26,815 nt of DNA from the IMG/VR virus record IMGVR_UViG_3300017781_004250, positions 1 to 26,815 of that record. One strand, given 5' to 3'. Positions 1 through 21,647 of the stretch are shown here, piece by piece. Below the pieces are notes generated by a model. That model saw only the letters and a program-made list of their open reading frames with translations. It was not told the origin of the DNA and ran no database searches. The translations under genes and the position numbers were made by a program. The DNA is from a virus. Numbering within the stretch: the first letter of the stretch is position 1; every line of letters begins with the position of its first letter.

Positions 1-441
1 AAACACGTGTGTGTCCACTGCTATGTGTGGTTCACCAAATACGAATCTCATCACAATGTCTGAACTTTTCCTGCCTACCCCCGGTAACGTCATTAATTCT
101 TTTTGTGTCCTTGGTACTTTACCATTAAACTTTTCTAGTATCATTTTGCTAGTGGCCAGTATGTTTTTACTTTTTGCGTTGTGTAATCCTGCAGGTCGAA
201 TTGCTTCTATCACTTCGTCTTGTGTTAATTTTAGCATATCTTCCGGTGTGTCAGCTAATGCGAACAGTTGTCTACAGGCCACTGCGGTCCTTTTGTCTTG
301 TGATTGTGCTGACAGCATCACACCTATGAGACTGGTGTACGCTTTAGAATAGATTTTTGCTTTAGGTTTCTTGTTAGAATATTCTGGATATAGAGAACTT
401 AATTTCTCATATATGTAGCCAATGTCATTACTGTTCTTCAT
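1..441 (-). CDS. nth: Endonuclease III-like DNA glycosylase/AP lyase (partial, runs off window)
   Basis: I translated this reading frame by hand: 147 codons from ATG at 441 to the window edge with no stop, so the C-terminus is missing. The protein matches the endonuclease III (Nth) fold in order. It has an N-terminal helical region with LSAQSQD (compare LSAQATD in E. coli Nth), then GLHNAKSKNI, then the helix-hairpin-helix LPGVGRKSS whose lysine is the Schiff-base nucleophile in the family, and finally VDTHVF carrying the catalytic aspartate. The family removes oxidised pyrimidines and cuts the abasic site. The four-cysteine iron-sulfur loop would lie outside the window and cannot be checked. 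The gene follows helicase gp41 and overlaps its end by 14 bases, so it probably shares that transcript. No good ribosome binding site is visible, which suggests coupled translation. Confidence 0.9.
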   Translation of the reverse strand, partial: MKNSNDIGYIYEKLSSLYPEYSNKKPKAKIYSKAYTSLIGVMLSAQSQDKRTAVACRQLFALADTPEDMLKLTQDEVIEAIRPAGLHNAKSKNILATSKMILEKFNGKVPRTQKELMTLPGVGRKSSDIVMRFVFGEPHIAVDTHVF

Positions 442-1870
442 CTGAGTGCAGTTCGTTTAGAAGTTGTCTCAGTTTGCCGCCTTCCACATTGGCTTTCACT
501 TTGCCTATTGTGTCACCCTTACGTGGATCCGGCACATCTGGTCTTGCATCTTTTGGCGTACCTTCTGATGCTGACACTTTAGATGTCTGTTTCAGTGAAT
601 CGTATATTGTGCTTCGCTGTTTGTCAAACTGTTTGTATTCCGGATCATCTGCCAAGTCTCTTATACGTAAACTGTCAACATCAAACTCTAAATCTACTTT
701 CTGTCCGACTCCTGAACTAGATCTAGTCTTCATGAACTGTATCTGATATCTTCCTCGTTCTTTCATAGCCCTACTTGTGAATATACCAATCACGTTGTCT
801 GCTGTCTGTATCTTGGATAGCCCACCTGAGATGTGAGAGTGATCAAACTCAATTTCTTCTACAGATGCTCTGTTTAACTGCGACGCTGTGGCCAATACAC
901 ACTGTTTTTCAACAACCAAGTTTCTCAGTTCCTCTGACACATACTTGTCTTTGATAAACAAGTCCGCTGGTGATATTCTTTTACTCTTTGGCATCATGAG
1001 ATCCAAATAGTCAATCAGTATGCAGTCTATCTTTTTTTTATTTTTAAGTTCTAGTTCTTTAAGATATGTTCTCACGTCCAATACATTGCTACCACTTGGC
1101 AAGTATTTGATCTGCAAAGTACCTGATTTTTTCTTCAGCATCTTGACCTTCATCTCAACATTATCTATTTCAGGAAACACTTTCTTAGTTGGAATGTTAG
1201 TCATCATTGCGTCCAACCTCATTGCCGTTAGTTGTTCACTTAATTCAAAAGATATGTAACACACATTCAGGCCTGCCTGTGCCCAGTTCACCGCAAGATT
1301 CTGCAAGAACAAACTCTTACCTGCACCTGATCCACCTGCAAAAATGTTTAGCTCTCCTCGATTAAATCCACCGAATAATTTCTTGTCCAAGTTATTCCAG
1401 CCAGTACTGACTTGTCCGTTGTTTGCCTTGAGTGCCTCAAGTCTTCCCTTCGGATCCTCAAAGTAGTCTGTACCAAGATCACGTGTTAGCCCTACGTTTA
1501 CTGCTTCCTTGACCATGTCCTCCACTGGAGCATAGTCTCCCTTTTCCAGCATGTCTGCGGACTGAAGTATTGCGTGTTCTAGTGCTTTGTGTCTTGAAAA
1601 AGTTTCAAACTCATCTAGTAGCCAATTGAAATGATTTGGATCCAAGTCCTTGGCTGATTTTAGTTTGATATCATGTTTTGCATTTACCTGTTCGACATCA
1701 GGCATAACCTTGTATTCGTCCATGTAGTCTTTTACAAACTTGGCTATTGGTTGTAGTTTACGATCAAACGATTCTGGTTTAAATATGTTCTGTGCTCGTG
1801 CAAATGATTCAGCATCTGCAAGAAGCATCTCAATGTAAAGTTTTTGTACGTCAAAAGTATATTCAGCCAT
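428..1870 (-). CDS. 41: Replicative DNA helicase, T4 gp41-like (DnaB family)
   Basis: A 480-residue hexameric helicase of the DnaB/RecA superfamily that unwinds the fork 5' to 3' and recruits primase in T4-type replisomes. The N-terminal 150 residues form the helical domain. The motor domain has Walker A GGSGAGKS at residues 179-186, Walker B ILIDYLDL near 284-291, and a later ATASQLNRAS stretch typical of DnaB helicases. Length is close to T4 gp41 (about 475). The start ATG at 1870 has GGAG about six bases upstream and overlaps the end of the radical SAM gene by eight bases. It lies in the order primase, radical SAM, helicase, endonuclease III, all on one strand, so it is most likely co-transcribed with the primase. 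The acidic C-terminal tail follows a proline- and lysine-rich linker. Confidence 0.95.
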   Translation of the reverse strand: MAEYTFDVQKLYIEMLLADAESFARAQNIFKPESFDRKLQPIAKFVKDYMDEYKVMPDVEQVNAKHDIKLKSAKDLDPNHFNWLLDEFETFSRHKALEHAILQSADMLEKGDYAPVEDMVKEAVNVGLTRDLGTDYFEDPKGRLEALKANNGQVSTGWNNLDKKLFGGFNRGELNIFAGGSGAGKSLFLQNLAVNWAQAGLNVCYISFELSEQLTAMRLDAMMTNIPTKKVFPEIDNVEMKVKMLKKKSGTLQIKYLPSGSNVLDVRTYLKELELKNKKKIDCILIDYLDLMMPKSKRISPADLFIKDKYVSEELRNLVVEKQCVLATASQLNRASVEEIEFDHSHISGGLSKIQTADNVIGIFTSRAMKERGRYQIQFMKTRSSSGVGQKVDLEFDVDSLRIRDLADDPEYKQFDKQRSTIYDSLKQTSKVSASEGTPKDARPDVPDPRKGDTIGKVKANVEGGKLRQLLNELHSDEEQ

Positions 1871-2771
1871 TTTTTACTCCGCACTTTATTTTACAACAAT
1901 CATGTGCAGAAGTAAATTGATTTGTTGACTCAAAGAACTCTTTTACTTCCGCTTTGGTTAAAATATCTTGTAATGAATTGTTTTCAATATTATATTGTTT
2001 TTGTTTTGGTGAGAACGCACTTTTAAACTTATAACGATATGTAGCTATCCAACAGCAAGGATAAAAGTCACCTTCTGCATCTATGTACAGTCTTTTGGCA
2101 GGTTTATCATTTACCATGCAGTAGGGTTTCATGCTTGTTTGATAGTCCCTATCGATCAACACCTTCTGTTGATGTTCGTAGTGCGTATCAACAAACTCCC
2201 TGTCTGGCATAAGTTCTTTTTTACCCAGCCATCGATCGCTATGTTCCAACATGAAACTATCGAACCCAAGTTTTACTGAGAGATTTTTTGCGGCCATTAT
2301 CTGATGTTGGTTATGTTTGAATACAATATATTTCCACTCCATTTCACATTGCCGATCACGTAAAATTTCTATAGCGTTCATGATTGATTTCCATTTTGCG
2401 TTTTTTCTATACAGATGGTTTGTATCTTCCAATCCATCAATTGAAAATGTAATCTTATCATCTTTATCTAAAATGTTGTTTAGTGTACGCCACCATTTTT
2501 TAGTTTTTGACGAGCCGTTGGTCATAATACTAATTTTACAATTATTTGATTTCAAGCGTTTACACAAGGTATGAAAGTTGGAATGGTAGATAGGATCACC
2601 ATTATTACCACACATGTTTACATCTGCATTCACACCAACGAAATTGACGAGATGTTCTATGTTGATCTCATGCAAATTTCTTTTTTTGAATGTTTCATAA
2701 AACCAAGTCCTGTCACACAGAGGACATTCAAGCGTACATTTACTTGTAGGTTCTATATGAAAACTAACCAT
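1863..2771 (-). CDS. Radical SAM protein with SPASM-like C-terminal cysteines
   Basis: A 302-residue protein. The N-terminal CTLECPLC (C12, C16, C19) is the CxxxCxxC cluster that binds the 4Fe-4S used to cleave S-adenosylmethionine. CGNNGDP at 54-60 corresponds to the GGEP-type SAM-binding motif. The C-terminal third has further cysteines (C218, C239-C240, C292-C293, C297) arranged like a SPASM or twitch auxiliary cluster domain. Such enzymes often modify peptides or sugars; the substrate here is unknown. The gene sits between primase and helicase, overlapping each by eight bases, with AAGGA six bases before the ATG. That fixes the start and implies coupled expression with replication genes, although nothing shows a role in replication. 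The fold call is firm; the function is open. Confidence 0.88.
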   Translation of the reverse strand: MVSFHIEPTSKCTLECPLCDRTWFYETFKKRNLHEINIEHLVNFVGVNADVNMCGNNGDPIYHSNFHTLCKRLKSNNCKISIMTNGSSKTKKWWRTLNNILDKDDKITFSIDGLEDTNHLYRKNAKWKSIMNAIEILRDRQCEMEWKYIVFKHNQHQIMAAKNLSVKLGFDSFMLEHSDRWLGKKELMPDREFVDTHYEHQQKVLIDRDYQTSMKPYCMVNDKPAKRLYIDAEGDFYPCCWIATYRYKFKSAFSPKQKQYNIENNSLQDILTKAEVKEFFESTNQFTSAHDCCKIKCGVKNG

Positions 2772-3777
2772 ACATTTTCCTTTTCAATTCGATCTTAAGT
2801 TTTGTTTTCTCTGCAGTCTTTAGTATTGACTGTATTACAAACAGTCTTCCATATTTTGCCACAGCATCCGCCACGTCATTAACCTCGTCGGCCCATTCCG
2901 GGAAAGCCACACTCCATCCAAATTCAATTGCTTGATTAATCAGTTTTCCTCCAGGGGCATCTCTATCTGGCACTATTATTACTTGTCTGCCTAACCCATC
3001 TATCAATTCTCTTTGTGTATCATTTACCTCCGAGCCTAGTATACTAACACCAGAAATGGTTATTGCGTCAAACGGGCCTTCAGTGACAATAACAAACTTT
3101 CTTGTCCAATCCTGTGCATCCATGTTGAATACGTATCCAGGCCAAACGTCTGTGTAATATTTTACTCCTTCAGATTGTTCAAACATCCTACCAGTAAATC
3201 CAACTATGTCTCCCTTCCAATAGAATGGAATCAAAAGTCTCTGATGCACGTCCCAAACTTTACTAGTCGAGTACATGAAGTCATACCAATCGGGTCCAAT
3301 GCCTCTACTAGATAGATATGTCAACATATTGTCTATACTTTTCTGTTCTGTGTCTGACAATGTTCCTGTTGTGTATTTTTCCAACCATGCGTCCAACGAC
3401 TTGGTATTGTTTGGCAAATTTTTTCTGTTGAATGTTATAAACTTTTTCTTTTCATACTTGATGTCACTCTCCTCTTCACGCATGGCTTCTATGGCAAGTT
3501 TCTTTATGGTGTCGTCTGGTATGCCTATGTAGCCCATGAACTGTCTCATCTTGTAAGTCAGTTTCCTACCAATGACATAACTTGATTTAAATCCACAGTT
3601 GAAACAATGGTAACTCACAGTTCCGTCTGCACTGGTCATTAGCCCTCCACGTTTCTTTTTGTCAGCAGTCTCGCCATTGTACACACAACAAGGTGCGTTA
3701 AAACTTATCCAACCGCTTGGTGTTTTCTTTCTGTTCGCAGGAAGACTAGTCAGAATTGTATTCTGTATAAGATTCAT
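2764..3777 (-). CDS. 61: DNA primase, T4 gp61-like (zinc ribbon plus TOPRIM)
   Basis: A 337-residue primase that makes RNA primers for lagging-strand synthesis and works with gp41. The N-terminal zinc-binding region has C30-C31 and HCFNCGF (H57, C58, C61). The catalytic TOPRIM domain shows VTEGPFDAI (E233, D237) and VPDRDAP (D271, D273), the metal-binding acidic residues of DnaG-type primases. Length matches T4 gp61 (about 342). ATG at 3777 follows the end of the putative virion gene by 13 bases. The next gene (radical SAM) begins inside its last codons. It shares the strand with helicase gp41, one gene further on, so the T4 primase-helicase pair is kept with one gene inserted between. Confidence 0.94.
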   Translation of the reverse strand: MNLIQNTILTSLPANRKKTPSGWISFNAPCCVYNGETADKKKRGGLMTSADGTVSYHCFNCGFKSSYVIGRKLTYKMRQFMGYIGIPDDTIKKLAIEAMREEESDIKYEKKKFITFNRKNLPNNTKSLDAWLEKYTTGTLSDTEQKSIDNMLTYLSSRGIGPDWYDFMYSTSKVWDVHQRLLIPFYWKGDIVGFTGRMFEQSEGVKYYTDVWPGYVFNMDAQDWTRKFVIVTEGPFDAITISGVSILGSEVNDTQRELIDGLGRQVIIVPDRDAPGGKLINQAIEFGWSVAFPEWADEVNDVADAVAKYGRLFVIQSILKTAEKTKLKIELKRKMYG

Positions 3778-4623: not shown

Positions 4624-4998
4624 ATGAACAAGATTTTTAACACGCTGAGAGACAAATTTCCTTTTTTGAGCCTAATAAGGAAAGGCGATCTGGAGTTTGT
4701 TGGAATAATACAGAACGAGGACAGCAATGTCATTAGTTTCTATGATTATAGCAGACTAATGATGCCCCAGGACAAGATAAAATATTTGAAATGTGGCGAG
4801 ACTTGGTGGCATGAATCTAATCGTAAATTACCAATTAATATCTTCCTAAAGGGTGAATTTCGTTATTTCCGTCACACACTAGTGACTCTGAACTCCAAAG
4901 ATATTGAAATAGTCCATGGACCAACAGTCAAACTTTCTGAAATTTCAAAGAAACGTGTAAAGAGAAGAACTATCCAATTAGTTAGACGTCCTACTTAA
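4624..4998 (+). CDS. Conserved-looking hypothetical protein, 124 residues
   Basis: A lone plus-strand gene between two minus-strand blocks. The 124-residue product is basic, with a C-terminus rich in Arg and Lys (KKRVKRRTIQLVRRP). It has a central WWHESNRKLPINIFLK stretch and no recognised enzyme motif, signal peptide or membrane segment. The fold may be a small beta-barrel, but I do not recognise the family. It starts 33 bases from the divergent virion gene, so both promoters must share that gap; TATAAA directly abuts its ATG. Its last eight bases overlap the end of the convergent 97-residue gene. A nucleic-acid-binding role would suit the basic tail but is only a guess. Confidence 0.7.
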   Translation: MNKIFNTLRDKFPFLSLIRKGDLEFVGIIQNEDSNVISFYDYSRLMMPQDKIKYLKCGETWWHESNRKLPINIFLKGEFRYFRHTLVTLNSKDIEIVHGPTVKLSEISKKRVKRRTIQLVRRPT

Positions 4999-5281
4999 TA
5001 TTAACAACACTCAAAAAAAAAGACCGCTGTCTGCGATCCCATCTAATCTTGATACCACGTGGGTGCCAAATCTTCTGCCACTGTGGCAGTTCATAGCGTA
5101 TCCACTTTTGACTCATTTGGTATTCCTTGTTCAACACCTTAATTGGCCTCTTGCTTTTATCACGCCATATAAAATCTAGATGTTTTACAAAGTCAACACC
5201 GGTCATTGGTCCGTTATCTGACAGGTCTACTATTTTGGGTTGGAGATTTTTTTTGAGCTTTTTAACTTTGCTGTGGTGCAT
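4991..5281 (-). CDS. Hypothetical basic protein, 96 residues
   Basis: A small, strongly basic protein (many Lys, Arg and Trp) with no motif I recognise. I chose ATG at 5281; an in-frame TTG one codon upstream is a less likely start. Its start overlaps the last 20 bases of the DnaE-like gene, so the two are probably translated together. The 3' end is unusual: a Rho-independent terminator stem and its run of nine T residues lie within the codons for the C-terminal DRRQRSFFL stretch, so the terminator of this long minus-strand unit is partly coding. The tight linkage to the DnaE-like protein suggests a shared process, but no function can be assigned. Confidence 0.7.
   Translation of the reverse strand: MHHSKVKKLKKNLQPKIVDLSDNGPMTGVDFVKHLDFIWRDKSKRPIKVLNKEYQMSQKWIRYELPQWQKIWHPRGIKIRWDRRQRSFFLSVVNIK
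5013..5038 (-). terminator. Rho-independent terminator overlapping the 3' end of a gene
   Basis: On the minus strand GATCGC, loop AGACA, then GCGGTC form a six-pair stem (one G-T pair), followed directly by nine T residues. This is a standard intrinsic terminator shape. It would end the minus-strand unit that begins at the promoter near 10728-10755. It lies inside the last codons of the 96-residue gene and about 15 to 40 bases past the convergent stop at 4998. Confidence 0.7.
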
Positions 5282-5852
5282 CAAAACTATATTTAGCTCT
5301 GCTGATCAAATTCATCTGTACAACTATTGCTTGTGCATATGCCACAGCGTGTGATTTCTTAAAGAAGTATGATCCGTCTGTTGGTTTTGTCCAAACCTCT
5401 CTTGTGATGTCTTCCCACTCCTTGTACATCAGTGTTCTTTTGGCAGGACGTATGATAGCCAGCACAGCCGCAAGTTGTTCTATGGTCTTTGGTTCTAGTT
5501 TGGACACTATACCAAAGTGACCGTTTAGGTGAAAAAGTTTTTCAACTATTTTTGGATCCTTCAACATGTCCCAATCTGGATCTTGTATCATCAGTTCTAC
5601 AAGTTCTTGTTCTGACTTAACTTCCTTGTAGATGTTAACGTTTAAACAGTCTATCTTGAAATATCCTCTGGCCTCTGCATTCTTGTAATCCAGTGATGCA
5701 TGTCCTGTCACCGGATGTTCCGGGACGGCATGGAAGTACACTCCAGTCTTGTGTTTTTCAGATTTTCCATCTTTTATCATTGATGCAGGTGTGTGCTTGA
5801 ACAGTTTCAACGTTTTGTCCCTGTCAAAGAAATCTATGTCTACATCAGGCAT
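5262..5852 (-). CDS. DnaE-like mini-protein with DNA polymerase III alpha catalytic motifs
   Basis: A 196-residue protein that lines up, in order, with five separated blocks of bacterial DNA polymerase III alpha (DnaE, about 1,160 residues). PDVDIDF at 2-8 matches PDFDVDF (two catalytic aspartates). HKTGVYF matches KHAGGVV. YFKIDCLNV at 64-72 matches VKFDFLGL (third aspartate, D68). LFHLNGHFGIVSKLEP leads to RPAKR at 135-139, matching FQLESRGMKDLIKRLKP and RPGP. FFKKSHAVAYA at 163-173 matches FNKSHSAAYA. The PHP domain, most of the fingers, and the clamp-binding and OB domains are absent. The start is fixed by a TAATG overlap with the 77-residue gene. Homologues probably occur in other marine T4-like phages as unknown proteins. 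Polymerase activity is doubtful at this size; a regulatory, nuclease or decoy role is possible. Confidence 0.7.
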   Translation of the reverse strand: MPDVDIDFFDRDKTLKLFKHTPASMIKDGKSEKHKTGVYFHAVPEHPVTGHASLDYKNAEARGYFKIDCLNVNIYKEVKSEQELVELMIQDPDWDMLKDPKIVEKLFHLNGHFGIVSKLEPKTIEQLAAVLAIIRPAKRTLMYKEWEDITREVWTKPTDGSYFFKKSHAVAYAQAIVVQMNLISRAKYSFDAPQQS

Positions 5853-6085
5853 TAGTGTACACTACCTTTCTCGCTTTCGTTGTGTTTTATAAACTTTTCT
5901 TTTGATCCTGGTTGTAGTATTTCTACCACTTCTAGTAAGGCCTTGTAGCCTTCACTGTTCAACATCTCTGTGTTCATTTTTGGCACTATCACTTTACCAA
6001 TTGATCCATCTTTTTTTATAGTCACCGCACAATCCCCTTCTTCGAACTCTAAATTTTCTGCTATCTCTAAATCTATCTTAGACAA
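5852..6085 (-). CDS. Small hypothetical protein with TTG start
   Basis: A 77-residue acidic protein with no recognised domain. A central DGSIGKVIVPKM stretch precedes a helical GYKALLEVVEILQPG stretch. No ATG is available near the start; the TTG at 6085 is preceded by the strong ribosome binding site GGGAGG six bases upstream, which decides the start. It overlaps the end of the zinc-finger gene by eight bases and its stop overlaps the start of the DnaE-like gene (TAATG). The three genes are therefore a coupled set. The sequence pattern seems familiar from marine T4-like phages, where it is unnamed. Function unknown. Confidence 0.75.
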   Translation of the reverse strand: MSKIDLEIAENLEFEEGDCAVTIKKDGSIGKVIVPKMNTEMLNSEGYKALLEVVEILQPGSKEKFIKHNESEKGSVH

Positions 6086-7411: not shown

Positions 7412-7898
7412 AGTCCACCTGTTCACACTGCCTTGATATGTCTTTTACAAAGTAGGCACACATTGGTTTTGGCCCATTATTCAATGGCACTGCTAACATC
7501 TGTCCCGACTTTATTTTTGGAAAGTACCATTTGACTTCAGAGTAGATATCAACTACGTCGATGGGATAAAAATCAGGCTTAGGGCTAGACAACGGGTTGA
7601 ATGTAAAAGCGTCAAACCCCCTGTCGTTTAAACTAGTTATAGGAAGGACGTGCATCTCAGATTGTCCTGCTTCCCCTATCAACATTTTCCAGTCAAGGGG
7701 CATTTTAATTTTGTGTGGACCGATCTCCAACACTGCCGCAGGTGCATTAAAACTTTCGAGAAATATCAGTGGAATGTAAAAGAAGTCTGGGTTGGCAGGA
7801 TCAGAATTATCTAAAACTGCAAATCTTAAATTTTCATCAACCCATTCGGGTATCTTTTCCAATGCGTAGGTTCTATTTTCTAATGTAAGGATTTTCAT
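7395..7898 (-). CDS. Conserved hypothetical protein next to UvsW
   Basis: A 167-residue protein with no enzyme motif. Notable stretches are FLESFNAPAAVLEIGPHKI, PITSLNDRGFDAFTFNPL and VKWYFPKIKSGQMLAVPL. This pattern matches an unnamed protein I associate with T4-like marine phages, so it is probably a core gene of that group. It begins within the last codons of uvsW (26-base overlap) and overlaps the next small gene. Position between UvsW and the gp62-like gene suggests replication or transcription control, but there is no direct evidence. No signal peptide or membrane helix is visible. Confidence 0.8.
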   Translation of the reverse strand: MKILTLENRTYALEKIPEWVDENLRFAVLDNSDPANPDFFYIPLIFLESFNAPAAVLEIGPHKIKMPLDWKMLIGEAGQSEMHVLPITSLNDRGFDAFTFNPLSSPKPDFYPIDVVDIYSEVKWYFPKIKSGQMLAVPLNNGPKPMCAYFVKDISRQCEQVDYGSVW

Positions 7899-9342
7899 AA
7901 TTTATCTTTTCTATATTATACGGATAATTTGCCTCTTTGTAAAACTTTTTCCTTGCACCCAGGTGACGCTTTGCAAACTTACAGCTACTGGTAATATCCC
8001 ATATCTGTACACTGTCTTTGTCCTCTGCTTTCCTTATCCCACGCCCTATGCTCTGTATTACCCTAACAAATGATTTTCCAGGTTCTATGAGAACAAGATT
8101 GAAAATACGAGGAATATTAATACCAACAGCGGCAACTCCATATGTGGCGATAATAACTTTATTTTGGCTAGTAGATATTTCATCATATTGTTCCTTTCTA
8201 TCTGTATTTTTTGTTGATCCAGAAACAAACACTGCATCTTTTATTTTCTTTTCAAGTATTTCTCCCGCTGATATTCTGTCCACCAGTATCAGTGTGTTTC
8301 CTGATGTTGCTATGTCTTGTATTGTTTTTGCTACCCATGACATACGTGTTGTGTCTGTGGTTAACCATTTTAATTCTTCGCCATAAGTTTTAAACTGTGG
8401 ATGATCCTGTGTCTGTAAAACATTTACATGGCAGTTGGCCAACACTCCTTTGTCCTGTAGTTCACTTGCTTGGATTCTGTTTGTAACGTCGCCGATACTA
8501 CATTTCAAACCCATAAATTCATAGTCTGCTTTTGGCACAGTCCCAGTCAAACCCCAACGGATGCCACAATGTGCAAACGGACCTGTCAACAATCTTTTTA
8601 ATACATCTGCTTTCGCCATGTGTACTTCATCAATTATGACGGTGTTGATACCTTGTATTGCCTCCAAGAAGTCTGTTGTGTGTTCGTCCTTGCTTTTCTT
8701 TTCTAGAACATTCAACGATTGCCATGTGGCTATAGTGTTGAATCTTCCAAGTTCTTTCCTGTCACCGTAGTATACACCAACATCTAAATTACACGCAATG
8801 AAGTCTTCTTCTGTTTGTGTTACTAAACTTTTGTTTGGAACTATTGTGAGAGTCCTGCCATATGGTTCAACCAGTTGGCACAACGCCGCTGTGATAATAG
8901 TTTTTCCTGCTCCTGTGGCAATTTCTTGTATACATTGTGGATTTTCTATAAACTTGTTGATCGTCTCTACTTGATAATCTCTCAGTACTATTGGTTGTCC
9001 CGCCGCGGGGTGATTCTCCGGCCATGTAATATGGGAAAGGTAATCTTTGTCAACTCTTTTAAATTCAAAGTTGTGCTGTGTCCTTTTGTCCTCGAAGTCC
9101 ACGTAAACTCCACCTTCCTCGAGGATTGGCAGTATTTGATCAACAAGATTAAGATAAGTGGTTCCTCCTAGTCCGAAGAAACTTACCTTACCATCCCATC
9201 TACCTAACTTGACCGCTGGCAAATGTCTTGCGTATGGAATTTCGTATTTGAATTTATTCGTTAATCTCTTCCTCCACTCCAAAGAAAGATTCTCAAATTT
9301 TACGTTTACTTCGTCTTTTATTACTAGTTTACAACTGCTCAT
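7873..9342 (-). CDS. uvsW: UvsW-like DNA helicase (superfamily 2)
   Basis: A 489-residue superfamily 2 helicase. In T4, UvsW rewinds and branch-migrates stalled forks and R-loops and helps shift from origin-dependent to recombination-dependent replication. An N-terminal domain of about 110 residues, with GRWDGKVSFF, precedes the motor. Motif I is ATGAGKT at 142-148, motif II DEVH at 238-241, motif III LTGT near 265-268, and motif VI QSIGRGIRK at 430-438. Length is close to T4 UvsW (about 500). It starts at ATG 9342, one base past the stop of the 449-residue gene, so it is on the transcript from the promoter near 10728-10755. The gene is intact. Confidence 0.94.
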   Translation of the reverse strand: MSSCKLVIKDEVNVKFENLSLEWRKRLTNKFKYEIPYARHLPAVKLGRWDGKVSFFGLGGTTYLNLVDQILPILEEGGVYVDFEDKRTQHNFEFKRVDKDYLSHITWPENHPAAGQPIVLRDYQVETINKFIENPQCIQEIATGAGKTIITAALCQLVEPYGRTLTIVPNKSLVTQTEEDFIACNLDVGVYYGDRKELGRFNTIATWQSLNVLEKKSKDEHTTDFLEAIQGINTVIIDEVHMAKADVLKRLLTGPFAHCGIRWGLTGTVPKADYEFMGLKCSIGDVTNRIQASELQDKGVLANCHVNVLQTQDHPQFKTYGEELKWLTTDTTRMSWVAKTIQDIATSGNTLILVDRISAGEILEKKIKDAVFVSGSTKNTDRKEQYDEISTSQNKVIIATYGVAAVGINIPRIFNLVLIEPGKSFVRVIQSIGRGIRKAEDKDSVQIWDITSSCKFAKRHLGARKKFYKEANYPYNIEKINYENPYIRK

Positions 9343-9343
9343 T

Positions 9344-10693
9344 TTAAAGTTTTATTATAATATGATCATGCCAATCCCAACTACTCGGTTGGTGATCACT
9401 ATAATACAACTTTTTTGGAAGATTCTCAAGAAGTCTTTTTAGATTATCTGTGCCTGTGGCATAATAACCGCCGCCTAAAGCAACCAGACTTGCTTTTGGT
9501 TTTATCTTGCTTTTAATTAATGCACGTGGTATTCTATTTCTAACAAATATTATTTTCGTATCATTGTTTATAAGTTTAAATTGTTTACTCATTTGGTGTA
9601 GCTCATACAAGTTCTCAAAGAACTCTTCAGATTTTTGGTTATCAAGTAGATAGGTTCTGTCACTGTTATGACGATCTATGTCTTTTTTATAAATGGGCTC
9701 TTTAACATCAAAACCCCAACTACACTCATTCAGTATGTCTATGCCATTATCTTTGAAAGCATTCATCCATTCCCAAAAGTTTTTTACGTCATCTTCCATG
9801 TGTATATCACCGCTTACTGGCATTATCAAAGGAAAACAGTTTAATTCAATTAGTCCTTTTACAACTTCTTTTTTGTTAAAGGCCTTTGAATCTATCCATA
9901 ACTTGTGGTAATTGTTATGGGCAATTTTCTTTCCTATCATTGTTTGTGCAGGAACATCTATGTGGGTGGTTGATATATAGAAGTTCTTCAAAGAGTCAAC
10001 TTGTTCTAACGCAGATTTATGTTTCATATTTTGTTGCCAATAATCTTGTAACGACTCAGCGGCATCTCTTAAAACAATTTCGCCTGCTATTAGACTGGCT
10101 GTTGGCTTACGATGTCCTGCGATCTCCTTTTTGATCTGCTCATAATCGTTAAGAAGGCTGTCGTCAGTGAATTTAAAATCATATCGCACTGCTATCAATG
10201 TAAGATAGTAAGCGGTAACATCTGTGTGTAAAAAAGTCCATTTCTTTTTTTCACCATCGTACACAGCATACATTCCAGGCAAATCACGTCTGTCCTTCAT
10301 GCAACGTATCAGTTGTATAACTTTCTTATTGTAAGGGAATCGCATTTCTATTTTAGTTACATTATCCTCGTCAACGTATTTTTCAATCAACTTGTCAAAA
10401 CTTATTACACGAAACTCGTCATCGTACTTTGGTTTGTCTAACAACTTTTTGATGTCCATGCCGTGGGCTTGAAACTTTGTTAGATATCGTTTCAATATAA
10501 CAAGTGCCAATCTGGCCTGTTTCTCGGTCCATGGATATTGTGACTCTGCCAGTGATCTGACTGTCTCGTAATCTTTGGGGTGTGGCTTGATTACGCCTAT
10601 ATTTCCCAACATTGAAGAATTTACCCAAAAATAATCATTATATGCTAGTATTTTAAGTGCTTCGTTAATGGTTTTTGGCATATCTGAGTGCAT
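9344..10693 (-). CDS. Large unknown protein upstream of UvsW (HARP-like stretch)
   Basis: A 449-residue protein of unrecognised family and first gene of the UvsW unit. I chose ATG at 10693, six bases after AGGA; a TTG two codons earlier is less likely. Residues about 115-175 hold KIEMRFPYNKKVIQLIR, then KKKWTFLHTD, an order that recalls the HARP-type domain placed before the motor in some SNF2-like helicases (FPY, then K-W-F). No Walker motifs follow, so it is not a helicase by itself. The C-terminal part has IIFVRNRIPRALIKSKIK and ALGGGYYATGTDNLKRLL. A DNA-structure-binding partner of UvsW is a reasonable inference from position, nothing more. No transmembrane or signal segments. Confidence 0.75.
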   Translation of the reverse strand: MHSDMPKTINEALKILAYNDYFWVNSSMLGNIGVIKPHPKDYETVRSLAESQYPWTEKQARLALVILKRYLTKFQAHGMDIKKLLDKPKYDDEFRVISFDKLIEKYVDEDNVTKIEMRFPYNKKVIQLIRCMKDRRDLPGMYAVYDGEKKKWTFLHTDVTAYYLTLIAVRYDFKFTDDSLLNDYEQIKKEIAGHRKPTASLIAGEIVLRDAAESLQDYWQQNMKHKSALEQVDSLKNFYISTTHIDVPAQTMIGKKIAHNNYHKLWIDSKAFNKKEVVKGLIELNCFPLIMPVSGDIHMEDDVKNFWEWMNAFKDNGIDILNECSWGFDVKEPIYKKDIDRHNSDRTYLLDNQKSEEFFENLYELHQMSKQFKLINNDTKIIFVRNRIPRALIKSKIKPKASLVALGGGYYATGTDNLKRLLENLPKKLYYSDHQPSSWDWHDHIIIKL

Positions 10694-10727
10694 TTTCAAT
10701 CCTGGTAATTTAGATAATTATTAGTAT

Positions 10728-10755
10728 ATTATAGCATAATTGGTAATATAGTCAA
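10728..10755 (-). promoter_or_regulatory. Strong sigma70-like promoter with extended -10
   Basis: On the minus strand: -35 TTGACT (10755-10750), a 16-base spacer, and -10 TATAAT (10733-10728) preceded by TGC, giving an extended -10. This is close to bacterial consensus and would be read by unmodified host polymerase. Predicted start is near 10721, leaving a leader of about 28 bases with AGGA before the ATG at 10693. It should drive the minus-strand unit down to the terminator at 5013-5038. Confidence 0.75.
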
Positions 10756-10757
10756 CC

Positions 10758-11234
10758 ATGAAAAAAAGTAAAAGTAAAAAAGTAAATGCTCGGAAACAAC
10801 TAAAAGTCAAATTGGAGAATACTCTAACTAGACACAAAAACGTTGTGGGATTCAAACCCACACAACAGCAAGTATACCAATGGTTCAGAGTAATAAACAG
10901 AGGCTTATTCAACAGTAGATTACCAATGGTGGAGCTACAAGTTAAAAAATTACACAAAGACTGGGGCAGATGTGTCGCCAATTGGGACAATAGGAAGACT
11001 CCAAAAGGCAAATTTGATCAGAGAGTTATACCGTATCATATAGATGTAGAGTTCTACATCGAACTACACTGTAAGTTTCCTACGTGGAAAGATTTTATAG
11101 AAACACTGGCCCACGAAATGGTACATCTTTACCAAATGACATGGCTGAAAGATCCTTATTCAAACCACAATGCAAACTTTTTTGCTTGGAAAAATAAATT
11201 TAAAAACGCAGGACTAGGTCTGACTAGGTGTTAG
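10758..11234 (+). CDS. SprT-like zinc metallopeptidase
   Basis: A 158-residue protein with the SprT-like domain. QVYQWFRVINRGLFNSRLP near the start matches the first helix of the family. The zinc site is HEMVH at 119-123 (two His ligands and the general-base Glu), with the third ligand probably H137 in HNANFFAWKNKF, a spacing typical of SprT and Spartan. The cellular relatives cut proteins crosslinked to DNA; phage members are uncharacterised. The N-terminus is highly basic, and there is no C-terminal zinc ribbon. It is the only plus-strand gene between two minus blocks, divergent from the UvsW unit across a 64-base gap, and overlaps the convergent sugar-island gene by 21 bases. Confidence 0.88.
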   Translation: MKKSKSKKVNARKQLKVKLENTLTRHKNVVGFKPTQQQVYQWFRVINRGLFNSRLPMVELQVKKLHKDWGRCVANWDNRKTPKGKFDQRVIPYHIDVEFYIELHCKFPTWKDFIETLAHEMVHLYQMTWLKDPYSNHNANFFAWKNKFKNAGLGLTRC

Positions 11235-11954
11235 AACCTTATCAAACTCAGCATAACTTATAATCTTACTATTACCTAAGTCTGTGCCGGTTTGCAAATA
11301 GTTTAAGTAGTCCGGCGGATTGTCATGCACCACCGTGTAATTGACATAAGGTCTCATCTTCAACATGTCGCGGAACTGTTTCAGCCAACCATCAAAAATT
11401 GTATCAGCATGCCTTTCGCCGTAACATTCCGTTTCTTGATAGATATTGTTCAACTGGTCTTTACCGTATTCTCTGAAATCATATCCTAACAGATATATGT
11501 TTTTGTGGCCGTGGACTCCTGCTGTCCAGAATGCCTGGTTGCCTGAGATCCAGTGTGGATTGTTTGGAATAAGATGTATCATTCCTTTCGCATGCCTTCT
11601 GTTCACTTCGAGGGAGGGAGCGTAATGTATAGTCTGGCGTCCTACTCTGTCCAAGCACATCTGTGCGGTCATTTTTGCATCGACACTGAATATAAAGTCC
11701 GGGATAAAATCTCTGTATAAAGCGTTACATCCATACGTCTGTCCTGTTGCTTTTAATTTGTTCAGATCAAAATCTTTACGTGATGGTCCATTGCCTATGC
11801 AGTATGCATTTCCTCTTGGCACTGCTTGGACTTTGTCTTCGAAGAATTTTTTTTCGTGTATGCGTTGCCCTTGACGTATAATTGTGTTCACAATGATTTC
11901 TTCACCAACGTACTTTTGCCATTCTATTTCGGCCACTTCCTTGTTTCGTGCCAT
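11214..11954 (-). CDS. DUF115/MptE-like or sialyltransferase-fold protein
   Basis: A 246-residue protein with IGNGPSRKDFDL at 53-64, then TYGCNALYRDF and FSVDAK at 89-94. A G-N-G-P-S loop followed by a N-A-x-Y and a D-x-K block recalls DUF115/MptE-like proteins and the nucleotide-sugar site of some glycosyltransferases. The middle has WISGNQAFWTAGVHGHKNIYLLGYDF, which looks like a Rossmann strand-loop. It is the last gene of the 14358-11214 run and shares a single base with the end of the KpsS-like gene (start at 11954). Context supports a part in glycan handling, possibly transfer of a sugar or sugar phosphate. The substrate is unknown and family assignment is tentative. Confidence 0.6.
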   Translation of the reverse strand: MARNKEVAEIEWQKYVGEEIIVNTIIRQGQRIHEKKFFEDKVQAVPRGNAYCIGNGPSRKDFDLNKLKATGQTYGCNALYRDFIPDFIFSVDAKMTAQMCLDRVGRQTIHYAPSLEVNRRHAKGMIHLIPNNPHWISGNQAFWTAGVHGHKNIYLLGYDFREYGKDQLNNIYQETECYGERHADTIFDGWLKQFRDMLKMRPYVNYTVVHDNPPDYLNYLQTGTDLGNSKIISYAEFDKVLTPSQT

Positions 11955-12826
11955 TATAAGTATTTCTCCTCTAACCTTTCCTTAATACGTTTCCATGGCC
12001 GTCCTTGATGTATTTCTTCTGTCCACCATTCCGTGTACGCTAACTTGTTAAGCCATTTTTGCCTGTCGGGCATTTGCGGATTGTCTATGTTGTCGAAGGA
12101 CGTGTTGCCGATATCGTAACTTAGGCTTGCCTCAGATACGTACACTGGTATTCCATGAATGGCCGCAGTGATGGCAGGATTGCTTGAATAACTTACAAGT
12201 GCCCAAGCCGACTTCAAACGTTCAGTAAGGTCTGTGTCGTCATATGTAGTGTTGTCTCTTTTAGGGCCTACTATTTTTACATCTTTATATTTGCCTGTAT
12301 CGATAATGACATGATTCCTTGGATGTGGCCTTATGGTAATTGGCCTGTCTGTGTATTTTCTAATTTCGGTTATCTGTTGATCAAACCATTTCGACATGGG
12401 TGGATTGTGACGCCACTGGTGACTGTTAGTATGCTGTCCACAAACTATAATGTTTTCACCTGTCTGATGCCATGGTTTAATGGCAACCTTAAATTTTTTC
12501 CAACGTTCCCCGTCGACAACTTCATTGGCAAAGTCGGCTTCTCTGTTTACACCGTTGATGCCAATTTTCCAAGTTTCATTTCTCTTAATACCTCCCACCT
12601 CTATAACAATTACAGGCTTGTTGTTTTTCTTGTATCGCTCCCATATATCTTTGTATCTCCGCATGCGGCCTTGCCATAACACGCTCCAGATTACTGCTAC
12701 GTCACCATTGGGTGCTTGTTTGTTCACCCAAACTTGTTCTCCAGATGCACGTAATGATTCAATAAACTTGTTGAATACTTCTTTGGAATTCAAAGGACCG
12801 TGCTCAGGCCAAATTTCTATGTTCAT
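11954..12826 (-). CDS. KpsC/KpsS-like glycosyltransferase, copy A
   Basis: A 290-residue protein resembling the capsule polysaccharide (KpsC/KpsS) type of GT-B glycosyltransferase. The C-terminal half carries YTDRPITIRPHPRN at 158-171, SAWALVSYSSNPAITAAIHG around 206-225, then IPVYV. The tail reads DNPQMPDRQKWLNKLAYTEW followed by an EI-x-x-G turn. The same set of blocks recurs in three other genes of this window (14354-15337, 16108-16923, 19432-20244). In the KpsC/S family such blocks bind the CMP-linked donor. The gene is packed between a DxD glycosyltransferase and the DUF115-like gene with one-base overlaps at both ends, so one transcript is likely. Confidence 0.7.
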   Translation of the reverse strand: MNIEIWPEHGPLNSKEVFNKFIESLRASGEQVWVNKQAPNGDVAVIWSVLWQGRMRRYKDIWERYKKNNKPVIVIEVGGIKRNETWKIGINGVNREADFANEVVDGERWKKFKVAIKPWHQTGENIIVCGQHTNSHQWRHNPPMSKWFDQQITEIRKYTDRPITIRPHPRNHVIIDTGKYKDVKIVGPKRDNTTYDDTDLTERLKSAWALVSYSSNPAITAAIHGIPVYVSEASLSYDIGNTSFDNIDNPQMPDRQKWLNKLAYTEWWTEEIHQGRPWKRIKERLEEKYL

Positions 12827-13746
12827 TAGTTGCCTTGTCTTCCTTTTGCAACCTTGCTAACAATATCTTGCTCTTGTTTCGCGTCAAATTTAATACCTCT
12901 AAATGGGTCATAGTCTTCTACGTTCTGCCAGTAGGCTTCGTTCCGTTCGCCACGAAGATCGCTCTTACTACTTTTACCTAGCACTTTCCTTTTACCTTTC
13001 ATGTGATCAACATAGCCACCTAGCACACTGTTAATGAATACATGATGCCCTTTAGCACCTGCACCTTTTCCAATGTCCACACCGTCGTTGGGTGCTATCC
13101 TTTTCACACACTGCCAAAAAACGTAACTGTCGTGCCATTCTAGTTCTTTGAATATGGTGTCTTTGACATAGAGATCTGTCCAGTACTTCATAAATTCATT
13201 TATTTTTGGGTGCCTCTTGTTGTAGCAAACCCAACCACACTCTGGATATTTTTCACCCCTTCCGAGAAAATTTACAAGTTTATCACTAGGTAGTAAAGCT
13301 GTAACGAATGCAGTTGTAATTTTCCTAAATGTGTATGTGTCTGCATCTAGCCATAGGATGTAGTCAGCATCTATTGTTTTAATAGCATGATCTACTGCAA
13401 ACGTTTTGTGAGCAAATCTAACGGCATCCCACAAGTAAGAGCCCTTTCCTTTATCACTTTTTCCTGCGTTTGGGTCTCTTCTTACCCCTCCTGGTATTTC
13501 TTTTATTTCTCCGTTGGCAACTGGATCGTCTTTGTGTTTTTGTTTAAATTTTACAAGCTCTGGGTTGGCCTCTTCGATGTTTATAAATTTTACTTTGCTG
13601 TGATTAAAATCTGGTTTTACACCTTCGTGATATGCGTATAGCACAACATCGTCAGGCCAAAATTCAACATGACTCTCTAACATCCTCTTTGCATATGCTG
13701 TCCACCTGTTTGGCGGAAAGGTTGTAACAACTGCGAGACTACTCAT
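12826..13746 (-). CDS. Glycosyltransferase with DxD motif (GT-A type)
   Basis: A 306-residue protein. YILWLDADTYTFRK around residues 129-142 contains the hydrophobic strand and DxD (D134, D136) that hold the metal and nucleotide sugar in GT-A glycosyltransferases. The N-terminus LAVVTTFPPNRWTAYAKRML and the later GWVCYNKRHPKINEFMKYW and ELEWHDSYVFWQ blocks fit a GT-A-like catalytic domain. The tail is lysine-rich. No signal peptide or membrane helix is seen, so it should act in the cytoplasm. It overlaps the methyltransferase gene upstream by eight bases and the KpsS-like gene downstream by one. Donor and acceptor sugars cannot be read from the sequence. Confidence 0.75.
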   Translation of the reverse strand: MSSLAVVTTFPPNRWTAYAKRMLESHVEFWPDDVVLYAYHEGVKPDFNHSKVKFINIEEANPELVKFKQKHKDDPVANGEIKEIPGGVRRDPNAGKSDKGKGSYLWDAVRFAHKTFAVDHAIKTIDADYILWLDADTYTFRKITTAFVTALLPSDKLVNFLGRGEKYPECGWVCYNKRHPKINEFMKYWTDLYVKDTIFKELEWHDSYVFWQCVKRIAPNDGVDIGKGAGAKGHHVFINSVLGGYVDHMKGKRKVLGKSSKSDLRGERNEAYWQNVEDYDPFRGIKFDAKQEQDIVSKVAKGRQGN

Positions 13747-14341
13747 AATTTCCTAACATGTACACACCAACACGTCTGCCTACTTTATGTTCAATTATTT
13801 GCGGAAATGTTTCCATCATCTCTCCATGGCTCCAGTCGTCCTTTATGTGTGCTTCGTATGGATTACCGTGAACTGGTTCTTGTGGGTAGTGTATGATAGG
13901 AATGCTAATAAACAAGTAGGTGGATATCCTTAATATTTGCTCAACTACTTGCACTGCATCTTCTTTCGCCATATGTTCTAAAACATCACCAGCCACCGCA
14001 ACATCAAAAGGCCCTAGTTTGTTGTAGTCTAACTTCCTCACATCTTCATTTAGTATTGTATCATATTTGGATCTTAGATCAAATTTATCAATGTAGGGCT
14101 CCCACACCTCCACACCTGTCCATCTGTGTTCACTTAATGGACCAGCGTCAATTTCCCAATTTTGTTTTAGTGTTTGGTATTTGTCTCCACCTGCTTGATA
14201 TTTGTGTTTTAGGCAATTTAAATATGCGCCTTCTCCAACACCTATGTCTAATGCGGCCTTGTGTGTAAGTTTGCCTTGCACTTTTAACTGTTCGACCCAT
14301 TCGACAATGGTTGCTTTCCCGGCTTTTTTACTATGTGGCAT
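13739..14341 (-). CDS. SAM-dependent methyltransferase (class I)
   Basis: A 200-residue class I methyltransferase. Motif I is ALDIGVGEGAYL at 30-41, the acidic strand-2 end lies in GVEVWEPYI at 76-84, and motif IV-like FDVAVAGDVLEHM spans 112-124, as in small-molecule and lipid or sugar methyltransferases. There is no DNA-methyltransferase DPPY motif, so a sugar or other surface substrate is more likely than phage DNA. ATG at 14341 lies nine bases after an exact TATAAATA box, suggesting that a late transcript begins here. The gene leads a run of four genes (methyltransferase, DxD transferase, KpsS-like, DUF115-like) with overlaps throughout. Confidence 0.8.
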   Translation of the reverse strand: MPHSKKAGKATIVEWVEQLKVQGKLTHKAALDIGVGEGAYLNCLKHKYQAGGDKYQTLKQNWEIDAGPLSEHRWTGVEVWEPYIDKFDLRSKYDTILNEDVRKLDYNKLGPFDVAVAGDVLEHMAKEDAVQVVEQILRISTYLFISIPIIHYPQEPVHGNPYEAHIKDDWSHGEMMETFPQIIEHKVGRRVGVYMLGNYE

Positions 14342-14350
14342 AATACAACC

Positions 14351-14358
14351 TATTTATA
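14351..14358 (-). promoter_or_regulatory. Late promoter-like box TATAAATA inside the sugar island
   Basis: An exact match to the T4 late promoter core on the minus strand, overlapping the stop codon of the preceding gene and ending nine bases before the ATG at 14341. With T4 spacing the RNA would start only about four bases before the ATG, so the message would be almost leaderless. That makes the site plausible but uncertain. Confidence 0.4.
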
Positions 14359-15337
14359 GACCCAACTTTGACTTGAATCTTTTATAAACTGTGCCGTCTT
14401 TTATCTCATTGATACTCCAAAGTTTATACCCGAGATCATTCACCCACTGTGTCCTGTCCGGAGTATCGGGAGTTTCTATATTGTTTAAATCTTTGTTACA
14501 AACGTCCCAACATAGTGCGAGATTGGATGTGCAGAAAGTTGGAATACCTCTTATACAACTGTCGACACTGGCTGTGGAGTTATGAGTTACAACAGCGTGT
14601 GCATTTGAAATGGCTTCTTGAAAATGGAATCTGTAATATTTTTTTTCGTCACCGACAAAATTTTTTTGTGTGTATTGAATTTCAACATCGTCGGGTAGTT
14701 CGTCCTTGCGTTCTAGAATGTTTGACACATTGTTTGGATGAGGCCGTACAATAAATTTCCTACTTGTTGCGGGTCTAACTTTTTCATATACATCTTTGAA
14801 CCAATCTATCGGATCTAGCTCGTTCATGCTCCAGTTGTCTTTAGGTTGTAGCACAAATATGATCGGATCTTCTTGGTTGGATTTCCTCCATGGTTCATAT
14901 TTTACATCAAACTTCTTCACCAACATGTCCCAACGATCGCTAGGACTGTCATTTGATAGGAAGTCGCCGTCGTTCATTGGCGTGTACAATGACACTCTGA
15001 AATGATGATCAGGTGATGTTGAAACATTACCAAAACTAGATAGGAGCCCACCGTCAAATGTTATTAGTGGAATTTTTTTTGCCCTGCAGTTGTCTGCGAG
15101 TTCTCTACGCCTACCTTTAGTGTGGTGCATCTGTTTGTCTCCACCATAACCAAACATTGCCGCCATTGGTGCAGTGGGCACCATTTCGCCTTCAACGGTT
15201 GGACCTGATCTGTTTTCATTAACTATAATTGGTTCATCCCCAGAGACCTCAATACCTTTTTTTAGATGGTAAAGCAGTTCATAACTGTTTCCACGTTTAC
15301 GATCCTTAACCGTCCTACGGAATATTTCAACTTTCAT
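14354..15337 (-). CDS. KpsC/KpsS-like glycosyltransferase, copy B
   Basis: A 327-residue member of the same family as copy A, with a longer N-terminal half. Shared blocks are RKFIVRPHPNN around 193-203, ISNAHAVVTHNSTASVDSCI around 243-262, IRGIPTFC, and the tail NNIETPDTPDRTQWVNDLGY followed by KLWSINEIKDGT. The RPHP block and the THNSTAS loop are the best-kept family signatures, so this copy looks catalytically complete. I start it at ATG 15337; a TTG one codon upstream is less likely. It overlaps the end of the FkbM gene by 11 bases. The N-terminal region (residues 1-110) is unlike that of copies A, C and D, which may mark a different acceptor. Confidence 0.7.
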   Translation of the reverse strand: MKVEIFRRTVKDRKRGNSYELLYHLKKGIEVSGDEPIIVNENRSGPTVEGEMVPTAPMAAMFGYGGDKQMHHTKGRRRELADNCRAKKIPLITFDGGLLSSFGNVSTSPDHHFRVSLYTPMNDGDFLSNDSPSDRWDMLVKKFDVKYEPWRKSNQEDPIIFVLQPKDNWSMNELDPIDWFKDVYEKVRPATSRKFIVRPHPNNVSNILERKDELPDDVEIQYTQKNFVGDEKKYYRFHFQEAISNAHAVVTHNSTASVDSCIRGIPTFCTSNLALCWDVCNKDLNNIETPDTPDRTQWVNDLGYKLWSINEIKDGTVYKRFKSKLGL

Positions 15338-16115
15338 CAATGTCCTTCCTAAAGAATATTAGTTCCATCATTTTTTTTGATCTTTTCCTGTTTATGTAGA
15401 TATTATACTTTGTTCGATGCAAATTGTAAAGCTCCCTGACTTTATCAAATGCCTCTTCAATCGTCATGCCAACGGTCAACTCTATCTCTGTTACCCAGTA
15501 CTTCACGTCTAAGTTTGCTATTTCTTTACCAACATCGTGCCAAAGTCCTTCTACATCTGTTTTCAGGATGTCAACACTGTCCCACTCCAAATCTGCCATT
15601 ATTGTGGTGATATTTTTGCATTCTACTTCAATGGTCTCTAAACTGTTACCTTGGTCAATCAATGAATAACTGGCTGGAATTGGTAAGTCATTCCATTTAC
15701 CTTTGTGTCCATCCGGTGGATAAAAAGTAAAAAAGCCGTTAACAGGGCCATAAGCAACAGGATAAAATTTAAGACAGCGATTGATTATCTTTTGACTATG
15801 TTTGCCACCTTTTCTTATGCTGGCAAAATAGTGATATCCACCCTGCTGTAATATTCTTTTTATATAAAATTTGGTTGCAGGAGTCGGGTCAAACATACGC
15901 ACATCAAGGGAGTTATTATCAACACATATCAACTTCTCAAAGTGGGCGTCTGCACCTATGCCGAAGCTCAACACCCTTTTAGAATTTTTTACATGATATT
16001 CAGGCACATGGTAGTTCCTATACAGTTTGAAATCCTGGGTCTCAAACAATTCTTCTTCGAACCTTCTGATTTGTCCGATTATATTTGCATCGTCTGGTTT
16101 AGGTATATCAGCCAT
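15327..16115 (-). CDS. FkbM-type methyltransferase, copy 1
   Basis: A 262-residue protein. VLSFGIGADAHFEK at 48-60 is a variant SAM-binding loop, MFDPTPATKFY at 74-84 is the strand-2 acidic region, and VDILKTDVEGLW at 181-192 is the hallmark IKxDVEG motif of FkbM-family methyltransferases. The family usually O-methylates sugars or polyketides. It differs from the second FkbM gene here (21002-21628) in having a longer N-terminus and a degenerate motif I. It lies between KpsS-like copies B and C with short overlaps, so the methylated product is probably the sugar these enzymes build. No membrane segment is seen. Confidence 0.8.
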   Translation of the reverse strand: MADIPKPDDANIIGQIRRFEEELFETQDFKLYRNYHVPEYHVKNSKRVLSFGIGADAHFEKLICVDNNSLDVRMFDPTPATKFYIKRILQQGGYHYFASIRKGGKHSQKIINRCLKFYPVAYGPVNGFFTFYPPDGHKGKWNDLPIPASYSLIDQGNSLETIEVECKNITTIMADLEWDSVDILKTDVEGLWHDVGKEIANLDVKYWVTEIELTVGMTIEEAFDKVRELYNLHRTKYNIYINRKRSKKMMELIFFRKDIDES

Positions 16116-16923
16116 TTAACATTCTCCATGCTGTGCCGTCTGCCATTTCTTTCAAACTCCAGTTGTTGTAGGCTAGGCTTGAAAACAGTGCAACCCTATC
16201 ACCATAAAGTGGTGTTTCGATTTTTGCAAAATCTTTTTCAGATATCGGTGCCGCCGCACTATTCTTAGGGTCACATAGCACCGGTACACCATTTGCCAGA
16301 CTGGCAATCATGGTATTGGAGTTGTATGTCACTGTGGCATAGTAATCTTTCCAATTAATTTTATCTTTGTGTGTTGTTGGTTTATCTACCTTCACAGTGG
16401 CACCCACATGATCCATTTCTACTGTAGGATTGTAAGGCTTTTCACGAACATCTATCTGTCTGTCTGTATTTTCTTTCAGTGTCTTAAGTGTGTCATCTAA
16501 CCAGCCTTTTGCATTGAAGAAGTTTGCGATCGCATTAGTAGGTGGCAGGACCAATATTTTTCCACCTTGCTTGTTCCATGGTTTAATGTCCTGTTTGAAA
16601 TGTTTTTCATACCTATCTGTTGGTCTCTCTTGTAAAATGTTCTGGCAGTGTTTGTTTTTTGTTATCCTTAGCCAATGTGGGGTATTGTGGGCGTTAGTAA
16701 AGTACCCATGATCCATAAAATAAAAATCCTTGTCTTCCTTCTCGCACCATTTGTAAATCTCACCTGAACCGGCCAGTATTCCATACATTGTTAAATTTTC
16801 TTCTGGTAAGGCTACTAGATCTCGGAATTGATAAATTTTATTTGCTCCTGGAGTACCTTTTACAAAAGCATCAACATATCTTTGTGTACGTGGTTTGGTC
16901 GTGTTTATTCCTGCTATGTTCAT
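16108..16923 (-). CDS. KpsC/KpsS-like glycosyltransferase, copy C (altered motif)
   Basis: A 271-residue relative of copies A, B and D. The N-terminal half includes DFYFMDHGYFTNAHNTPHWL (66-85). The family block around 152-164 reads NTDRQIDVREKPY, so the usual R-P-H-P has become R-E-K-P; a true family histidine is lost. The rest is kept: VTYNSNTMIASLANGVPVLC (198-217), KIETPLYGDRVALFSSLAYN and the WSLKEMADGTAW ending. The nearest relative by eye is copy D, which has R-H-K-P at this place. The changed residue may alter donor use or activity. The gene overlaps the oxygenase gene by four bases and the FkbM gene by eight. Confidence 0.68.
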   Translation of the reverse strand: MNIAGINTTKPRTQRYVDAFVKGTPGANKIYQFRDLVALPEENLTMYGILAGSGEIYKWCEKEDKDFYFMDHGYFTNAHNTPHWLRITKNKHCQNILQERPTDRYEKHFKQDIKPWNKQGGKILVLPPTNAIANFFNAKGWLDDTLKTLKENTDRQIDVREKPYNPTVEMDHVGATVKVDKPTTHKDKINWKDYYATVTYNSNTMIASLANGVPVLCDPKNSAAAPISEKDFAKIETPLYGDRVALFSSLAYNNWSLKEMADGTAWRMLNG

Positions 16924-21628: not shown

Positions 21629-21647
21629 CATAAATTAAATACTTAAA

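Follow-up and report, generated by a model that had tools for sequence, protein, structure and literature searches.

The window analysed here is the whole 26,815-nucleotide stretch of the IMG/VR record IMGVR_UViG_3300017781_004250, a metagenomic fragment, and its features are listed in Table 1. The gene under study encodes a protein of 196 residues that opens with MPDVDIDF and stops just past KKSHAVAYA, referred to below as the C half. It sits among UvsX/UvsY/UvsW/primase/helicase genes, and the order UvsW ... C half, PHROG_11637 gene, structural gene, primase and DnaB-like helicase was common to the window and phages including Phosso, PA5oct, 121Q and BF. In XacN1 and RAS14 the opposite-strand gene was kept and the gene order differed further on. 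The TAA that ends the upstream 77-residue gene shares bases with the start ATG of the C half, and translational coupling of the two genes appears likely. The UvsW neighbour named in the preliminary description of this locus was recovered by the family search; the gp62-like gene also named there found no support, as the neighbouring genes matched only PHROGs of no known function.

Table 1. Features of the window, with residue numbers of the 196-residue protein and their E. coli DnaE counterparts.
Position	Strand	Feature	Basis or remark
1..468	-	Nth-like (HhH-GPD) DNA glycosylase	Cut by the window end; first 156 residues visible
428..1870	-	gp41/DnaB-like replicative helicase	Replication/recombination cluster
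1863-2771	-	Radical SAM protein (QueE-like, weak match)	Between primase and gp41 helicase
2764..3777	-	gp61-like DNA primase	Replication/recombination cluster; PHROG
4624..4998	+	PHROG_11637 gene, opposite strand, downstream of the C half	Synteny marker, same place in relatives inspected
5262..5852	-	C half: Mg2+/template side of the split minimal Pol III alpha, 196 aa, PHROG_11778	PHROG, hhalign, AlphaFold, Foldseek
5337..5351	-	H168-A-V-A-Y172 of KSHAxAYA = H760/Y764	Alignment and conservation
5439..5450	-	R135-P136-A-K138, finger block = R639/P640	Alignment and conservation
5649..5657	-	K66-I-D68 = K553/D555, third catalytic carboxylate block	Alignment and conservation
5742..5753	-	H34-K-T-G37 = H511..G514	Alignment and conservation
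5832..5846	-	D3-V-D5-I-D7, palm carboxylates = D401/D403/D405	Invariant 164/164
5852..6085	-	77-aa gene, no family match	Adjoins the C half upstream
7873..9342	-	UvsW-like helicase	Conserved replication/recombination cluster; family search
9344-16923	-	About nine ORFs, mostly without PHROG match	From UvsW to the endonuclease V-like gene
16920-17675		Endonuclease V-like gene	Weak match
20960-23359	+	Methyltransferase, nucleotide-sugar epimerase, glycosyltransferase	Sugar-modification cluster

Homology of the C Half to DnaE

Searching the PHROGs collection with the 196-residue protein returned PHROG_11778 ('DNA polymerase') with an E-value of 1.8e-66, and profile-profile alignment by hhalign placed the C half on DnaE residues 509-640 with 95% probability (E=1.7e-8). 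Pfam gave a sub-threshold match to the DnaE finger model only. A single-sequence phmmer search of PDB gave no match and the profile search was weak (E=0.04), both probably due to the deletion of the thumb. Homology was settled in these cases by the profile-profile and fold comparisons. The protein is a real and conserved one whose similarity to the core of bacterial Pol III alpha (DnaE), the catalytic part, goes far beyond chance and reflects homology, and the preliminary description of a DnaE-like protein with intact carboxylate motifs in the right order was borne out. Using tblastn, the C half was found in 90 phage records, nearly all of jumbo phages with many unrelated hosts and including Atu_ph07, Phosso, PA5oct, 121Q, RaK2, CBB, SCTP-2 and XacN1, and in more than 567 contigs of IMG/VR.

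Structures predicted by AlphaFold were of high confidence for both the C half (pLDDT 89.7; 67 natural sequences used) and the separately encoded N half described below (pLDDT 91.1; 72 natural sequences). In Foldseek comparisons with PDB all of the top 15 matches of the C half were Pol III alpha (best probability 1.00), as were all of the top 10 matches of the N half. No other fold was confident for either half, so that the fold check proposed beforehand did not speak against the assignment; the global rmsd was high, probably because alignments ran over large targets with deletions.

Active-Site Conservation and Missing Parts

The motifs M-PDVDIDF, KHKTG, YFKID, LAIIRPAK and KKSHAVAYA follow each other as in DnaE. 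Twelve positions, D3, D5, D7, H34, G37, K66, D68, R135, P136, K138, H168 and Y172 (window numbering), were invariant in 164 of 164 distinct C halves, and the GxGRGS motif (E. coli G359-S364) was invariant in 137 of 137 distinct N halves. A small set of DnaE sequences assembled for this analysis showed no variation either at the E. coli counterparts of these residues, K138 excepted. Variation of the aspartates among homologues had been named in advance as the observation that would speak against the assignment, and none was found in the 164 sequences. Alignment to the E. coli motif MPDFDVDF corrects the proposed D5/D7/D68 mutant by one acidic residue, as D3/D5/D68 correspond to D401/D403/D555. 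The C half is clearly under strong purifying selection: the median dN/dS within the window group was 0.048, a value that is rough since synonymous sites are near saturation (dS near 1.5) but clear in direction.

In E. coli about 150 residues lie between D401/D403 and D555; here the corresponding distance from DxD to the third aspartate is 61-65 residues, in agreement with the shortened spacing noted previously. The span from D7 to H34 measures 27 residues compared with 106 in E. coli (405-511), a deletion of the size of the thumb, which is gone. Similarly, R135 and H168 are separated by 33 residues compared with 121 in E. coli, and the segment with Y686-Q689 and R709 is gone; in the DnaE set, R709/R710 and Y686-Q689 were invariant or nearly so, and the C half has no room for them, so that the binding of dNTPs may be altered or absent. 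The C half also lacks a PHP domain and everything past KSHAxAYA (clamp-binding, OB and tau-binding parts). Together these losses suggest that the enzyme, should it have any activity, is slow and non-processive. The triphosphate-binding GS block is likewise absent from the 196 residues, but relatives have it in their N half, a separate protein. The earlier estimate that about 80 percent of the polymerase is absent is only partly right: in all complete relatives checked, a gene elsewhere supplies the GS half of the palm in trans.

The N Half and the Split Point

A search with the DnaE palm model PF07733 recovered a second short DnaE-like ORF elsewhere in the genome in 9 of 9 complete phages, and in all of four further phages (4/4) including the 141-kb Alishewanella phage Slicko01. 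These N-half ORFs are about 170-180 residues long (about 175) and end in ...VWGVGRGSSVASYVLFLIGIHRVNSITYELDFDEFLN directly before the stop codon. Their profile matched E. coli DnaE 209-393 (E=2e-7), and the C half begins at about 399; by hhalign the N half fell on DnaE 320-395 (E=1.7e-9), without overlap with the 509-640 segment covered by the C half. In the ORFs of 80 IMG/VR N loci the stop lies 0-6 residues past EFL[KR], and in 67 representative copies of the C half the start lies 1-7 residues ahead of DxDxD, extending to about 20 residues in some phages. Taken together, these two boundaries indicate that the break in the palm separates the block that binds the triphosphate from the one that binds Mg2+. 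None of the ORFs of the 80 N loci had N and C fused, nor were intein residues found at the break, where N ORFs stop right after EFL[KR] and C ORFs begin right before DxD. On one 191-kb contig (L126:7583-8513) the N half carries an N-terminal extension of about 140 residues (310-residue frame); the C half was not found on this contig, which is possibly a fragment or a variant.

The N half was present in 13 of 13 complete phages with the C half, and conversely the C half was present in 9 of 9 examined virus contigs longer than 200 kb with the N half; contigs below 200 kb lacking one half were considered uninformative fragments. Tallies in the phage collection were nearly equal, with 90 records for the C half and 87 for the N half, as was also seen by host genus (C/N: Escherichia 34/34, Pseudomonas 11/11, Salmonella 8/8, Erwinia 8/8, Klebsiella 11/10). 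The two genes are separated by about 11 kb in Slicko01 and by more than 180 kb in Atu_ph07 and Phosso. The N half was found neither in the 26.8-kb window nor in the window-type contigs of its close lineage, which reach 61 kb. Four contigs gave matches in this search. A true N half is present in one of them, which belongs to a more distant relative (G064); the other three were rejected as N-half carriers, the match being to a different, single-chain mini-DnaE. An abundant marine N-half clade occurs in overlapping samples. The record is only a 26.8-kb fragment, and the phage of the window probably has the N gene elsewhere in its genome. The 196-residue protein appears to be neither a relic nor an isolated fragment, and constitutes the C-terminal half of a two-gene minimal DnaE.

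Other Polymerases in the Same Genomes

A family B (gp43) polymerase was detected in 17 of 17 split-pair genomes tested, which argues for the pair being an accessory polymerase and not the sole replicase; it was not found within the window fragment. In the nine genomes inspected motif A of gp43 was recognisable throughout, and motifs B and C were too, with few exceptions at most. Motif C of SCTP-2 is unclear and looks unusual, and gp43 is in pieces in Atu_ph07 and PA5oct; a split Pol B intein has been published for MIJ3, a relative of PA5oct (PMC6892783). A DnaQ-like exonuclease (PF00929), a possible partner, was present in 10 of 13 genomes.

Many close relatives of the window have, directly after gp41, the Nth-like glycosylase followed by a single-chain mini-DnaE of about 565 residues (L352:1450-3132), with the blocks RGS, PDVDIDF, K-x-D, RP, RRAFAKK and AHAVN and no PHP domain. 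It followed nth, with intact motifs, in 8 of 8 window-type contigs that have nth and extend far enough; contigs with the cassette include L352:1405-3132, L353:94-1797, L354, L054, L055, L076 and L077. Within the stretch searched no mini-DnaE was found in contigs lacking nth, and about half of the window-type contigs had no cassette there and kept the C half. Because the window is cut inside its nth gene, a mini-DnaE is expected just outside the window end. The huge uncultured phage LR756508 (LR756508.1, L355/L356, 484 kb) has a mini-DnaE (39% identity, 575-residue frame) together with a family B polymerase, and neither half of the split enzyme was found in it; here the mini-DnaE is possibly a functional replacement of the split enzyme. 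The pairing with a glycosylase suggests repair synthesis, and Nth and mini-DnaE possibly form a repair cassette. Tentatively, one marine phage lineage might have three polymerases, namely gp43, a palm-only heterodimeric family C enzyme and a PHP-less mini-DnaE in an Nth base-excision-repair cassette, the split enzyme being a third polymerase in its own right and having a chemistry of its own. This combination, like the cassette, may be a new observation.

Putative Function and Alternative Explanations

The gene probably codes for one subunit, the C-terminal one, of a stripped-down family C polymerase that works as a heterodimer and may have a short-patch or gap-filling role beside the family B replicase. 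The C subunit would supply the palm strands that carry the three aspartates for Mg2+ binding, the shortened fingers and the KSHAxAYA helix, and the N subunit of about 175 residues, encoded far off, would supply the palm helix and the GxGRGS loop holding the dNTP triphosphate. Given that neither an intein nor a fused form was found, both chains would join non-covalently into one Pol-beta-type nucleotidyltransferase palm. Such an enzyme, without thumb, PHP, clamp-binding and R709-type finger elements, would be distributive and unable to replace the replicase, and might serve short-patch, gap-filling or recombination-associated synthesis beside the family B primary replicase. The 'reduced polymerase' of the preliminary description is hence retained with regard to the intact carboxylates and amended in that the protein is one subunit of a split enzyme and not the whole.

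The same pattern, with all metal-binding and GS residues invariant although the thumb, PHP domain and R709 finger segment are missing and a family B replicase is always present, could also be expected of a non-templated or specialised nucleotidyltransferase with a family C palm, acting in end-tailing or nucleotide modification. We consider this unlikely, since the pair retains the KSHAxAYA helix and the finger block, which in DnaE line the nascent base pair and template, and since the gene has its place among recombination and replication genes. That most of a polymerase is missing might instead point to a non-catalytic replisome adaptor or a decoy for host Pol III parts (epsilon, clamp loader). 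This is very improbable, because none of the host-interacting parts of DnaE (PHP, clamp-binding, OB, tau-binding) is kept, and what remains is the active site, invariant in 164 of 164 sequences across phages of many unrelated hosts. This invariance, an omega of about 0.05 and the co-occurrence of the N half wherever it could be tested also disfavour both the relic and the decoy proposed in the preliminary description.

A further possibility concerns the window lineage only, in which the C half could work with, or be in the course of displacement by, the neighbouring mini-DnaE instead of a dedicated N half. The eight window-type contigs with an intact-looking mini-DnaE after Nth and the absence of a detectable split pair from LR756508 fit this proposal, but it is highly unlikely in view of the strong purifying selection on the C half, its retention in the roughly half of window-type contigs without the cassette in the stretch searched, and the abundant marine N-half clade in overlapping samples. 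The two-subunit polymerase thus remains the preferred reading. If its halves assemble and work, it would rank with the smallest polymerases of family C, with about 370 residues compared with 1160, and would have one catalytic site shared between two distant genes; it would also be a natural test of the DnaE parts needed for chemistry. It is relevant, too, to a published proposal in which such minimal forms are likened to ancestral Pol III.

Relation to Known Systems

Jumbo phages of group 2.2 have been described computationally as encoding a split minimal Pol III alpha (Iyer et al., 2021; PMC7824862), which reduces the surprise that the preliminary description attached to a family C gene in such a genome. 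That system (PHROG_11127 as N and PHROG_11778 as C half) likewise consists of two standalone proteins split into an NTP-binding and a Mg2+/template-binding part, encoded by distant genes and accompanied by a family B polymerase, the latter two features being seen here in relatives of the window. The split was derived independently in the present analysis, and the published description agrees with it without conflict; the window gene is a new marine member of this already described enzyme, on a metagenomic fragment. Added here are the abundant marine copies, the pair in the 141-kb Slicko01, the exact split point, the invariance counts and the Nth/mini-DnaE cassette. Our literature search found no experimental test of the split enzyme since the 2021 description.

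Compared with bacterial DnaE (E. coli Pol III alpha, 2HNH), the palm and part of the fingers are homologous and D401/D403/D555, K553, H511, R639, H760 and Y764 are kept, whereas the PHP domain, thumb, R709 finger helix, clamp-binding and OB parts are missing and two chains replace one. In cyanobacteria DnaE is encoded by two genes with split inteins. The phage enzyme differs from this arrangement in having no intein and in missing nearly all other domains. The phages Krampus (gp56/gp57, L211) and Larrie (L213) have DnaE in two adjacent genes, near full size and split elsewhere, and represent gene splitting of a phage DnaE of independent origin.

Although abundant in the sea, members of the family are often mis-annotated, either as hypothetical or membrane protein or by a start codon placed so late that the catalytic DxD is cut off. 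One short alpha homologue had been noted as 'DNA polymerase III alpha subunit' in CBB (CBB_328), Atu_ph07 (gp316) and GAP32 (PMC5259590, PMC6102473). CBB_328 (172 aa, PMC5259590) and the annotated alpha subunit of GAP32 are the N half of the split system, as is probably Atu_ph07 gp316 (PMC6102473); in these papers the C half went unrecognised, being listed as hypothetical or as 'putative membrane protein', the latter in CBB and GAP32. In Atu_ph07 the annotated start of the C half (YP_009611739.1; L001 8073-8567) lies 81 bases too late, so that the catalytic DxDxD is lost, and the open frame has an ATG from 7992.
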